A stretch of DNA of 64,000 nt. Origin: Gemmatimonadaceae bacterium. Its GTDB lineage: Bacteria; Gemmatimonadota; Gemmatimonadetes; Gemmatimonadales; Gemmatimonadaceae. Numbering within the stretch: the stretch's first letter is position 1; each line of letters opens with the position of its first letter. Made by a program: the position numbers and the translations under genes. This document shows, one piece after another, positions 38,353 to 43,779 of the stretch. The stretch is from the NCBI GenBank assembly GCA_019186945.1, contig JABAQJ010000006.1:62001-126000 (forward strand), read 5' to 3'. The notes beneath the pieces were generated by a model, which was given only the letters and a program-made list of their open reading frames with translations, made no database searches and was not told the DNA's origin.

Positions 38353-40383
38353 TCATGGCGACCGCACGATCGTGGCCGAGATCCCCACCAGGTAAAGCGA
38401 TCCAGTGGCTCCTGCTCCCCACATCTGGATCAGGAGCCGCGACGAAGGTGACCTGAGCGCGGTCCACGTCGCTCCGTCGAAACGCAGCAGCATTCCATCC
38501 TCTCCCGCGGCAAACACATCCGTCGGACCCGTCCCCCAGACGGTTCGCAACGCTTTGGTTGCCGGACTGCTCATCGTGTACCATCGCGTGCCATCGTACC
38601 GCAGGATCGTTCCGGCCTCTCCGACGGCGAAGATGTCATTCCGCCCAGTCCCCCAGATTCCGCGCAACAGTTCCTTTGTCGGCGTTGGCATCGTCGTCCA
38701 CGCGTTCCCGTCGTAGTGCAGCACGGTCCCGGAGTCGCCGACAGCATAGACGTCGTTCGCCGCAGTCCCCCATACATGTCGCAGGAACCCTTCGGTCGGG
38801 CTGGTCATCGATCGCCAGCCACCTGGCGTGGAGGAAAGGATCGTACCCCGGTCGCCGACCACAAAGGCCTGCGTCGGATTTGCGAACCAGATCGACCGGA
38901 GCAACACTGCGCGCGGACTGGTCTCCGACGTCCAGCGGGTGCCGTCGAACCGGAGAATCGTCCCAGTATCTCCCACCGCAACGATGTTGAGCGGTCCCGT
39001 GCCGGCGACGCCGTACAGCGGGTGCGACGGCGGCGCGTCCATGGGCGACCAGCCCATCGGTCCGCGCCGGTAGATGACGCCACCGCCACCAACCGCGTAT
39101 GCGGTCTCATCCCCGCCACCCGGTCCCCACACGGACACGAAAGTCGGAGCGCTCACTTCCACTTTCCAGACGTTGCCCTTCCCGCGTACAACGGTGCCGT
39201 CCCATCCTGCGACGACCACACCGCCCGCGTTGTCGCCCGACACAGCCCGCAGGTTCTCGCCACTTCCCGAGGATACGATGCTCCGCCAGCTCGAACCATC
39301 GTATCGCACCACCTCGCCGGTATTGCCGACGGCGTAGATCTCGTTCGCGGACAGTCCCCAGATAGCAAACAGGTTGCGACTCGTTGGCGTGGGCTCGATC
39401 TGCCACGCCGTTCCATCGTAGTGCAACATCCGCCCGTTCACTCCGACTGCCCACACGTCGCGCGAATCGCTTCCCCAGACCCCGAAAAGCGGCGTGGTGG
39501 ACGGCGTCGTCATCGGCGTCCACGCGTTGCCATCGAAGTGCACGATTCGCCCGTTTTGTCCCACCGCGAAGATGTCGCGCGGCGACGTGCCCCAGAGACC
39601 CCACAACTCCCAGTCCGTCCCGCTGTGCACCAGCCGCCATGTCGTCCCGTCGAACCTGAGGATGATGCCGTTCACGCCAGTGGCGTAGATCTCGTCACGA
39701 CCGAACCCGTACACTTCCAGCAGGATCTCCGTGGTTGGGCTCGGCATCCGTGACCATGTGGTGCCGTCGAAATGAAGGATGATGCCGCCAGTCCCAACGG
39801 CGTAGACGTTCGACGCATCCGTGCCCCAGATGCCTACCAGCGTCTCCGTTGTCCCCGTCGACTGCAATGACCATGCGCCGCCCGCCGAATGCAACACTAC
39901 GCCGTTCTGACCGACCGCGAACGCGTGCGGCGACTCGGCGTCCGCCCACGCGCCGAGCAGCGATACGTCGGTAAGACCCTGAAACTCCAACCCGAAAGCG
40001 ACCGCTCGCGGCTCGCCCTCGACGACGGTCACGTCGCTGATGGCCTGCACATCGCCGGCAACTACGGTGATCCGCGCGCGGCCGGGTACGACCGCTCGTA
40101 TCGCTCCGTCAGCTGAAATCATCGCCGACGCCGGGTTCGATGACGAGAAGCGTAGCGCCGGATTGGTCAGAATATTTGCAGCCGAATCCCGGGCGATCAC
40201 CTTGGGGAACAGCAGCCCCCCAACGCGAAGAAACGCGCGTGCAGGAACGATCTCGATCGACGCAACCGGAGTCGCCGGACCGGCGAGTGCTGGCGACCGC
40301 TCCGCACACCCGCATGCAATCGCGGCCAGCGCGAGGCCAACCGTGCTACGTGTCCGATTCAAACGGCGCGAAGTGTTCGCCAA
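38353..40383 (-). CDS. Surface lipoprotein with Big_2 domain and 13 propeller-type repeats
   Basis: A 676-residue protein. The signal ends in a lipobox region (LAAIACGC). An Ig-like Big_2 domain follows (about 40-120), then 13 tandem repeats of about 39 residues and a partial last one. The consensus is L-x-x-[IV]-W-G-T-x-x-x-D-[VI]-[YF]-A-V-G-x-x-G-x-I-[LV]-x-[FY]-D-G-x-x-W, closed by a S/T/P-rich turn. This is the pattern of a beta-propeller or solenoid with aromatic staples. No catalytic motif is seen. The start appears to be TTG 40383 behind AAAAGG, as no ATG precedes the signal peptide. It is probably displayed on the outer surface. Confidence 0.85.
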   Translation of the reverse strand: MANTSRRLNRTRSTVGLALAAIACGCAERSPALAGPATPVASIEIVPARAFLRVGGLLFPKVIARDSAANILTNPALRFSSSNPASAMISADGAIRAVVPGRARITVVAGDVQAISDVTVVEGEPRAVAFGLEFQGLTDVSLLGAWADAESPHAFAVGQNGVVLHSAGGAWSLQSTGTTETLVGIWGTDASNVYAVGTGGIILHFDGTTWSRMPSPTTEILLEVYGFGRDEIYATGVNGIILRFDGTTWRLVHSGTDWELWGLWGTSPRDIFAVGQNGRIVHFDGNAWTPMTTPSTTPLFGVWGSDSRDVWAVGVNGRMLHYDGTAWQIEPTPTSRNLFAIWGLSANEIYAVGNTGEVVRYDGSSWRSIVSSGSGENLRAVSGDNAGGVVVAGWDGTVVRGKGNVWKVEVSAPTFVSVWGPGGGDETAYAVGGGGVIYRRGPMGWSPMDAPPSHPLYGVAGTGPLNIVAVGDTGTILRFDGTRWTSETSPRAVLLRSIWFANPTQAFVVGDRGTILSSTPGGWRSMTSPTEGFLRHVWGTAANDVYAVGDSGTVLHYDGNAWTTMPTPTKELLRGIWGTGRNDIFAVGEAGTILRYDGTRWYTMSSPATKALRTVWGTGPTDVFAAGEDGMLLRFDGATWTALRSPSSRLLIQMWGAGATGSLYLVGISATIVRSP

Positions 40384-40925: not shown

Positions 40926-41012
40926 GGCGAACTCATTCGCTCAGAAAACATCGACCGCGCACCACTTCCCTGCCACACCCTACCGTCGGTTCCGACCACC
41001 CGCAAGCGGGTG

Positions 41013-41522
41013 TCACGTCAGGCGACGCGCCAGGATGACCCGACTGTCTCCGCGACGATAGAAATCCCGCAAGGTTGCCAGCTCGGTGTAGCCCCGCGAC
41101 ACGTAGAACACGCGAGCGGAGTCCGACCCTCGCCGCGAAGACGCCTCGACGACGAGGAGCCGGCCACCGTCGGCTGCGGCCGTCCGTTCCACCTCCTGCA
41201 GCAGCGATCGACCGATTCCGCGGCCCTGATGCGCCGGGTCGACGACGAGCCAGTACAGATCGAACGTTCCGTCCGTCGCCGGAGTGGGACCGAAGCACGT
41301 GACCGCCACGAGCGCATCGCCGTCGACTGCACCGACCCAGCGATAGTCCGGATCCAGCGGCGGCACTCCTTCGGACGCCACGCCAAGGTCGAACAGCTCC
41401 AGCGCCACCTCCACCTCGTCGGACCCAAACGCGCCCGTACGCGTGACGATGCGGCGCACGTGCCGGCGATCCGATCGACGCAATTCCCGGAAAATCGGAC
41501 TGCCTGACGAACCGGCAGGCAC
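41013..41522 (-). CDS. GNAT-family N-acetyltransferase
   Basis: A 169-residue acetyl-CoA-dependent transferase. The acetyl-CoA loop is VVDPAHQGRGIGRSLL, preceded by the beta-4 strand FDLYWLVV and followed by VFYVSRGYTELA. The GTG start at 41522 shares one base with the stop of the upstream ATP-grasp gene (TAGTG), so the two are tightly coupled. It is last in a three-gene operon with two ATP-grasp ligases, suggesting it acetylates their peptide-like product or a building block. The substrate cannot be read from sequence. Confidence 0.85.
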   Translation of the reverse strand: MPAGSSGSPIFRELRRSDRRHVRRIVTRTGAFGSDEVEVALELFDLGVASEGVPPLDPDYRWVGAVDGDALVAVTCFGPTPATDGTFDLYWLVVDPAHQGRGIGRSLLQEVERTAAADGGRLLVVEASSRRGSDSARVFYVSRGYTELATLRDFYRRGDSRVILARRLT

Positions 41523-42577
41523 TACGACAGCGTCTGGCCGAAACGCGCGCGATCCTCCGCGCTGACGGTAAGGCCGGAGAGTTCCTGCACCCTGGCCCAA
41601 CGGGAGTCGTACGACGTCGACGAGCGCGCGAGCGCGTGATCGCAGACGAGACGGACTAGCGCCGCGTAGTCCAGTCCGGCAACGCGCGCCATCCGCGCCA
41701 AGCCGGCGTTGGGTGCGATGTCCGGGTTCGCATTCACTTCCAGGATCCACGGTCGGCCCAAGCGGTCGATCCGCATGTCCACACGTCCGTACCCTTCACC
41801 GCCAACGAGTCGCCAGGACTCCAGCGCCACGCGACGCACCTCGGCCGCCACTGCGGCATCGAGCTGTGCGGGGCACGTTGGCACCGTCCCCAGATCCTCA
41901 TCGCATCCCGTTTCCCACTTCGAGCGGTACGACACGATCTTCCACATGCCGCGTGGCATGGCCGCGAAATCGACTTCAGCCAGTGGCAGCACCGTGTCGC
42001 CAACGATGCCGACGTTTACTTCGCGCCCGTCGATGTACCGCTGGACTATCACCTCGGGCCACATTTCCAGCATGGCTCCAACTCGCTCCGCCAGCTGCTG
42101 CTTGTTCCGGACGACCGAACGTTGCTCGATCCCCAGCGAGGCGTCCTCCGCCGCCGGTTTGCAGATGGCGGGGAACCCGATGGACGGAAGCGGCTGGCCC
42201 GTGCGTGCCAGCCCCCACGCGGGGACCGGAAGTCGCGACCTGTCGAGCAGCGTATTGACCACGTGCTTCCGGAGGCACAATGACGTGGTGAAGCTGGAGC
42301 TTCCGCTGTACGGGAGACCAAGAAGTTCCAGCACGCCGATTACAGGGGGCTCGAACGTGGCGATGCCGTCGATGCCTTCGCAGAGGTTGAAGGCAAGATC
42401 GAAGCGGCCACGCCTCAGACGGTCGATCCACTGCGTATCGGTTCCGACCGGGATGCGAGAGGCCGACTGTCCCTCGTCCCGCAACGCGGACTCGATCGCT
42501 GCGACCGTCTCGAGGATGAGCAGATCGGGTACCGGAGCCAAAGCGGAGACACCATCGAAAAGAACGGCGACCTTCAT
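41522..42577 (-). CDS. ATP-grasp ligase, D-Ala-D-Ala ligase-like (second of a pair)
   Basis: A 351-residue ATP-grasp enzyme starting MKVAVLFDGVSAL. It shows the substrate segment NLCEGIDG, the lid CKPAAEDASLGIEQ, the ATP-binding VIVQRYIDGREVNVGIVG, and the Mg-binding end ILEVNANPDIAPNAGLARMA. The fold is that of D-Ala-D-Ala ligases, but it differs from Ddl in the C-terminal specificity region (NANPDIAPN instead of NTxPGFTxxS). It probably joins a different amino acid or peptide. Its ATG overlaps the upstream ligase stop as ATGA. Confidence 0.85.
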   Translation of the reverse strand: MKVAVLFDGVSALAPVPDLLILETVAAIESALRDEGQSASRIPVGTDTQWIDRLRRGRFDLAFNLCEGIDGIATFEPPVIGVLELLGLPYSGSSSFTTSLCLRKHVVNTLLDRSRLPVPAWGLARTGQPLPSIGFPAICKPAAEDASLGIEQRSVVRNKQQLAERVGAMLEMWPEVIVQRYIDGREVNVGIVGDTVLPLAEVDFAAMPRGMWKIVSYRSKWETGCDEDLGTVPTCPAQLDAAVAAEVRRVALESWRLVGGEGYGRVDMRIDRLGRPWILEVNANPDIAPNAGLARMARVAGLDYAALVRLVCDHALARSSTSYDSRWARVQELSGLTVSAEDRARFGQTLS

Positions 42578-43779
42578 GTGGTCCCGAAATCGCGGAGGGG
42601 CATTCCATGCGGTGGCGTGCGCCGAGCCAACCGGCCGTACGAAGGCGCGCTCGGCAGCTCCACACCGCATCTGGCAGCCGCCAGCAGCAATGTACGCTGC
42701 ATCAGCTCGTCGTACCCAATGCCGGCAGCCCGCGCCGCCATCGGGAAACACGAATGATCGTCCGGGTTGGGCGCAATTCCCGGAAGCGGGTTGACCTCAA
42801 CGACGTTTGGCACACCTCGCTCGTCGAGCCGCAAGTCGACTCGCGCCCAATCGCGGCAACCGAGCACCGAATAGGCTCGGAACGCCACGTGCTCCAGCGT
42901 CTCTCGCAACCCGGCATCGATGCGCGCGGGGCATTCGTAGAGCGACAAGGGATGCTCACGCGTATCCCAGACCCACTTGGCCTCGAACCCGAAAATCGGT
43001 GGTGCCCCAGGCGGAAGCTCCTCGAATCGCATGCCAATGATCGGCAGGACCGTCAGGTCGTCGCCATTTCCCATGATGGCGCACGTGAATTCCTCACCGG
43101 GAAGAAACGACTCGACCAATGCCGGCTGTCGGTACCGCTCCAGCAAGTGCGCGACTTGTTCGCGCAGATCCTCGTACGTCGCGCAGATGCTCCGTTCGGT
43201 GATTCCCTTCGACGAGCCTTCGTGAGCGGGTTTCACGAACGCGGGGAAGGACCGGCGTGCGAACGGGTCGAGCTGCGAAAGGCTGGTGATGCGCGCGAAC
43301 GGTGCCGTCGGAATGCCGTAGTAGGATAGCGTTTCCTTGGTCCGTGCCTTGTCCAGGCAAAGCGAGAGCGTGAAGGGATCGCTGCCAGAGTAGGGGATTC
43401 CCATGAACTCGAGGATGGCCGGCACATGCGACTCACGGTTCGGGCCACGGCGGCCTTCTGCCATGTTGAACACGATGTCCGGCCTGGCGTCGAGCAGACG
43501 TCGTGGGAAGTCATCGGTCGCGTCGAGGCGGATTACCTCACCAAGCGGCGCCAGAGCGTCCGCTACGGCGTCGATCGTCTCGATCGAATCCCACTCGGCG
43601 AACTCGTCGTCAATGGAGAACTCGGCGACACCACCAGCAGACGATTCCACGGCGGGCGACAATGAGCCCGTCGTGGCTGTCAAATCCGCCGCGCATGATG
43701 CATTAGGCGGAGCGGTGCTGCTTGCGTCCACCGCGGTGGCGGTGGGCTTCATGTTGAAGGCGAAACCGATTCGCGTCAC
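42574..43779 (-). CDS. ATP-grasp ligase, D-Ala-D-Ala ligase-like (first of a pair)
   Basis: A 401-residue ATP-grasp enzyme. Blocks seen are DIVFNMAEGRRGPNRES, the lid FVKPAHEGSSKGI, PALVESFLPGEEFTCAIMG and VVEVNPLPGIAPNPDDHSCF. After the first strand (TRIGFAFNMK) there is an unusual Ser/Ala/Thr-rich insertion of about 40 residues. The start is GTG 43779 with GGGAG five bases upstream. It is the first gene of the operon and is about 50 residues longer than its downstream paralogue. Two successive ligations are the natural reading: this enzyme makes one amide bond and its partner adds another. Confidence 0.85.
   Translation of the reverse strand: MTRIGFAFNMKPTATAVDASSTAPPNASCAADLTATTGSLSPAVESSAGGVAEFSIDDEFAEWDSIETIDAVADALAPLGEVIRLDATDDFPRRLLDARPDIVFNMAEGRRGPNRESHVPAILEFMGIPYSGSDPFTLSLCLDKARTKETLSYYGIPTAPFARITSLSQLDPFARRSFPAFVKPAHEGSSKGITERSICATYEDLREQVAHLLERYRQPALVESFLPGEEFTCAIMGNGDDLTVLPIIGMRFEELPPGAPPIFGFEAKWVWDTREHPLSLYECPARIDAGLRETLEHVAFRAYSVLGCRDWARVDLRLDERGVPNVVEVNPLPGIAPNPDDHSCFPMAARAAGIGYDELMQRTLLLAAARCGVELPSAPSYGRLARRTPPHGMPLRDFGTT

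Follow-up and report, generated by a model that had tools for sequence, protein, structure and literature searches.

Two Ddl-like ATP-grasp ligases and a GNAT acetyltransferase in a Gemmatimonadaceae bacterium as the probable remainder of a four-gene biosynthetic cassette

The DNA stretch analysed here (the window; 64,000 nucleotides of contig JABAQJ010000006.1 from a Gemmatimonadaceae bacterium) carries an operon of two Ddl-like ATP-grasp ligases, A and B, and a GNAT acetyltransferase. On balance, we read this trio as the remainder of a widespread four-gene biosynthetic cassette, the complete form of which would build a small acetylated beta-lysyl peptide or amide. In the proposed pathway, the lysine 2,3-aminomutase KamA would isomerise L-lysine to beta-lysine, the GNAT would acetylate one of the amines (probably that of the side chain, which is where AblB acts), and A and B would form two successive amide bonds to give the acetylated beta-lysyl product, with B and the GNAT sharing one intermediate as substrate. 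In the window genome, kamA would have been lost. An argument made for other clusters is that lysine N6 is first blocked by acetylation, which directs the amide bond formed later (PMC2922099). The step order, the acetylation site, the partner amino acids and the biological role are given here as we infer them, and that the product serves as a solute or small protectant would be a guess. The initial annotation had proposed the synthesis of a small peptide or amide with acetylation. This proposal is supported in part: the placement of two non-Ddl ligases and an acetyltransferase in one pathway was borne out by the tree, the gene order and B-GNAT fusions, but the window copy lacks kamA, and this genome may therefore not make the ancestral product.

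All three genes lie on the minus strand and overlap by exactly the 4 and 1 bases first reported. Ligase A (42574..43779; 401 aa) has a GTG start at 43779 and a TGA stop at 42576-42574. The ATG start of ligase B (41522..42577; 351 aa) at 42577 lies within the stop of A, the 4-base overlap being ATGA, and B ends with a TAG at 41524-41522. The GNAT gene (41013..41522; 169 aa) shares 1 base with this stop, starting with a GTG at 41522 and ending at 41013. In Pfam, A and B matched Dala_Dala_lig_C (PF07478) with 119 and 90 bits, respectively (cut-off 24), and the third protein matched GNAT families (PF13508, 44 bits versus a cut-off of 27). The AlphaFold (AF2) models of A (pLDDT 83.5) and B (pLDDT 92.6) had the Ddl fold, with Ddl structures as the best structural matches, and the orthologues of B within the family were 58-67% identical. 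As the initial annotation had noted, the ligases differ in length and by an insertion: the extra length of A corresponded mainly to a variable, predicted-disordered N-terminal insertion (residues 16-57; 43609..43734, minus strand) that had a pLDDT below 50 and was unaligned among orthologues. Upstream of A are thyX and then an FAD-linked oxidase gene, and the GNAT gene is followed downstream by a small ORF and the genes for a repeat protein and EF-G. Genes of the mur, ddl or ftsQ kind were absent from the operon neighbours in the window, as had been stated. The repeat protein (38353-40383, minus strand), which contains many units like WGTGxxDVFAVGExGTILRYDG, sits between EF-G and the cassette, and a protein resembling it adjoins a decayed A gene in locus L061. 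Promoter and terminator scans gave nothing informative. An anti-phage defence role was considered and rejected, as PADLOC models gave no match for A, B or the GNAT.

The trio is not a chance arrangement, because the same genes were found in the same order in more than 100 other loci. In the gene-neighbourhood survey that had been suggested for paired ATP-grasp and GNAT genes, the ligase pair with a GNAT recurred, usually with KamA as the fourth gene. The order A-B-GNAT-KamA was observed in Gemmatimonadaceae, in other Gemmatimonadota families, and in loci labelled as other phyla, namely MAGs of Ignavibacteria/Bacteroidota, Kryptonia, Nitrospinae and Planctomycetota. A scan of species genomes yielded 550 confirmed stretches encoding relatives of A; among the 80 loci listed from it, 35 were labelled as other phyla or unclassified, and nearly all of these were MAGs with uncertain taxon labels. 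Most of the 35 loci with enough contig carried A-B-GNAT-KamA in order, and rearranged orders were seen in a Nitrospinae locus (B-GNAT-KamA-A) and a Planctomycetota locus (A-GNAT-KamA-B). The flanks varied, from thyX, FAD-oxidase and EF-G in some loci to recG, plsY and gpsA in others, and because they differ between phyla, the four genes can be regarded as a unit. Additional pathway genes in the flanks were sought and rejected: recG, plsY, gpsA, thyX, the FAD oxidase, EF-G and an M24-type peptidase were judged by sequence to be chromosomal context. No transporter or regulator that would hint at a role was found near the cassette in the flanks examined, and Rfam gave tRNAs alone, without any riboswitch, in 11 loci.

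ATP-grasp genes were noted in other settings as well. On plasmid pTHIMO01 of Thioflavicoccus mobilis (L139, 2557-8038), a ligase that shares 33-35% identity with A lies next to a KamA gene; the ligase gene comes after those for a diaminobutyrate transaminase, SbnA and an ornithine-cyclodeaminase-like protein. This is possibly a different diamino-acid peptide cluster. Several rhizobial plasmids, including those of Sinorhizobium in L140 and L141, carry ATP-grasp genes that stand alone and share 37-38% identity with A. Clade C (L066-L071 and L074) is a third group of Ddl-like ATP-grasp ligases, approximately 35% identical to A; its genes overlap or adjoin one that encodes a putative zinc metallopeptidase of approximately 350 aa. 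The stronger matches to clade C came from cassette-bearing genomes of the family sample.

In the loci of relatives that we read, the gene for the radical SAM protein KamA follows the GNAT gene. A and B were adjacent in 27 of the 59 Gemmatimonadaceae genomes, and 26 of these 27 also had KamA, the sole exception being the window genome; G002 contributes a 27th KamA to the family sample, a fragment lying at the edge of its contig. Among 395 Gemmatimonadota genomes, 104 had both B and KamA, 13 had B only, 8 had KamA only and 270 had neither (Fisher p 6e-70, a value that overstates independence because the genomes are related, although the loci still span six families). The best NCBIfam match of KamA was lysine 2,3-aminomutase (437 bits, versus 221 for EpmB), and the scores of cassette KamA proteins for this enzyme (437-521 bits) fell under the TIGR03820 cut-off of 525.4. 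When the proteins were aligned with the lysine 2,3-aminomutase (LAM) structure 2a5h, C125, C129, C132 and R134 were invariant in all 111 KamA sequences, and D293, D330 and K337 in all 106 of the 111 that covered these positions. In LAM, C125, C129 and C132 are the cluster cysteines, Asp293 and Asp330 bind the lysine side chain, and Lys337 is the PLP lysine; every lysine-specific residue is thus kept in the cassette KamA. KamA is thus predicted from its sequence to turn lysine into beta-lysine, and because such an aminomutase is normally encoded at the end of the operon, beta-lysine is suggested as a building block. The reading frame of kamA is broken in L052 (G040), L162 and L192, as is that of B in L192; either assembly error or decay is possible there.

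An aminomutase beside an acetyltransferase is also the arrangement of ablA/ablB, in which lysine 2,3-aminomutase and beta-lysine acetyltransferase produce N-epsilon-acetyl-beta-lysine (PMC1224877), and the same first step is predicted for the cassette. It could thus be argued that KamA and the GNAT alone make this salt-induced compatible solute and that the ligases serve a separate pathway in the same operon. We consider this improbable, since the four genes stay together across phyla despite changing flanks, and B and the GNAT are encoded by a single open frame in L120 and L123, which belong to two Gemmatimonadota families. Moreover, the cassette GNAT is not recognised as AblB: for six cassette GNATs, the AblB model gave no match at 1e-4, and matches were confined to general GNAT models such as RimI and AAC, all below their cut-offs. 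The cassette also differs from ablA/ablB in its two added ATP-grasp ligases and, in the window genome, in the loss of kamA. The solved structure closest to the window GNAT was PDB 2r7h (1.6e-30), a putative D-alanine N-acetyltransferase; this function name is the depositor's label, and we know of no activity for 2r7h. The GNAT may acetylate something other than beta-lysine. In the NAGGN pathway (asnO, ngg), a GNAT and an ATP-grasp ligase, even fused as one protein, make an acetylated dipeptide solute. The cassette resembles that pathway, as commonly described, in the cooperation and fusion of these two enzymes, whereas its ligase type differs and an aminomutase takes the place of asnO; no asnO-type amidotransferase was recognised among the recurrent flanking genes, whose annotation was not exhaustive. 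N-acetylglutaminylglutamine amide is a known solute (PMC1224877).

No KamA homologue was found in the window genome (G000; 3.95 Mb in 20 contigs, estimated completeness 100%), and the site that kamA occupies in relatives (40926..41012) is empty here, with no remnant of a radical SAM motif. In G205, the start of kamA can be read and a run of N then follows, so assembly gaps can imitate loss; the apparent losses in G205 and probably G182, which have runs of N at the site, were accordingly set aside. In single-contig MAGs (L121 near 11198 and L125 near 9400), runs of N likewise fall where kamA or the GNAT gene would be expected. No such run is present in the sequence read at the window region, which is internal to a contig of 478 kb. 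An A-B-GNAT trio without an orthologous kamA was also found in L119, L163 and L164, and a weak KamA homologue (about 34%) encoded by a genome without kamA belongs, where readable (L225), to a different, longer subfamily. With the window, four loci thus keep the trio without kamA, and beta-lysine may therefore not be indispensable. These loci, together with the conservation of A and B in the window, are what can be said for the ligases using ordinary amino acids or other substrates, with KamA as an optional branch and the window trio as a complete working pathway. We doubt this explanation, given the strong overall co-occurrence of B and KamA, and because decay better fits the drift of the window GNAT and the near-total loss in a sister genus. 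Conserved columns deviated in the window copy at 1 of 98 positions in A, 1 of 44 in B and 3 of 24 in the GNAT, which was among the four most deviant of 116. In the tree, the nearest kin of the window A were lone, long-branched A-like genes of the sister genus g26, located at the same site after thyX. These genes (L060:10375-11346 and L061:10438-11412) are decayed; their catalytic motifs seem to be gone, and by eye the EAKW motif is lost. Because the window genome is without KamA and the sister genus keeps only a decayed A, the comparison suggests that the window copy represents a stage of stepwise loss in which kamA would go first, then B and the GNAT, with A decaying last. Essentially every conserved residue is retained in A and B, whereas the GNAT has started to drift, so the operon here would be either a recent relic or one now using another amino acid.

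The ligases might alternatively have a macromolecule as acceptor, for instance peptidoglycan or a lipid, to which beta-lysine or one of its peptides would be joined, and would then yield no free small molecule; ATP-grasp ligases, Ddl-like ones included, work in the synthesis of cell-wall peptides (PMC2922099). This seems rather unlikely, because wall, lipid and export genes were not recurrent in the flanks; recG, plsY and gpsA occurred there in some lineages only and look like chromosomal context.

The fold and the PF07478 domain that A and B share with Ddl, and the Ddl structures returned as their best structural matches, might suggest extra cell-wall ligases forming D-Ala-D-Ala or D-Ala-D-X (Van-type) ends. 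The likeness extends to the ATP-grasp machinery, and Ddl Lys215 is kept in both proteins. We consider such a function very unlikely, however. The scores of A and B were well under every curated Ddl and Van cut-off (NF002378: A 180 and B 155 versus 243; TIGR01205: A 146 and B 113 versus 245.65). In the maximum-likelihood tree, the Ddl clade (support 100/99) included the genome's own Ddl, which is encoded on another contig (C5:167571), and both A and B fell outside it. The A clade (support 98/97) comprised Gemmatimonadota, Ignavibacteria, Chlorobi-like, Nitrospinae, Planctomycetota and delta-proteobacterial loci, and B likewise formed its own clade (support 96/84), one very long branch excepted. 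The residue after Lys215, the active-site Tyr216 of E. coli DdlB, is replaced by an invariant Trp (W269 in A and W221 in B), and the second-substrate loop is altered in both. E62 of A would occupy the position of Glu15 of Ddl, and the equivalent Glu appears to be absent from B. With regard to LysX/RimK-type ATP-grasp ligases, no RimK family was among the Pfam matches of A and B at E 0.1. Judged by sequence, neither A nor B is a Ddl, because the genome has its own Ddl elsewhere, the tree separates A, B and Ddl, and Trp stands at the Tyr216 position; the absence of wall-synthesis neighbours and the association with KamA also set the ligases apart from Ddl and Van enzymes. The initial annotation had described both as Ddl-fold proteins distinct from Ddl and had called for a phylogeny against it, and the models, the scores and the tree bear that description out. 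Finally, the KamA-family enzyme EpmB supplies the beta-lysine of elongation factor P (EF-P) in E. coli, but beta-lysylation of EF-P by an EpmA-unlike route is extremely unlikely here and was rejected for Gemmatimonadaceae, because the EF-P loop is without the target lysine (tip PGNL in 26 of 26 Gemmatimonadaceae genomes read, cassette present or not), EpmA was over its cut-off in none of 150 genomes, and the cassette KamA resembles LAM and not EpmB. In known EF-P modification systems, the loop-tip residue used is Lys or Arg. The EF-P genes examined (L226-L255) have Asn at this position (HHTPGNLRAM) in 26 of 26 readable genomes.

The trio did not correspond to an already defined pathway, the initial annotation having treated its product as one not yet described: in the open-access literature, a subset too narrow to prove novelty, we found no description of an aminomutase and ATP-grasp ligases in such an operon. 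As described above, the reading that we favour is a four-gene cassette of which the window retains three genes. It can tentatively be made more specific, namely that the cross-phylum cassette, with two Ddl-like ligases acting in succession, would yield an as yet undescribed acetylated beta-lysyl di- or tripeptide, that this product would be widespread in the environment, and that the window lineage would illustrate its stepwise loss. Genes of this kind carry a Ddl domain and could easily be called D-alanine--D-alanine ligase, but they are something else. A compact set of four genes, kept in the same order in several phyla, is a good target in the search for a new and common bacterial metabolite, and its aminomutase offers a concrete and testable starting point, beta-lysine.
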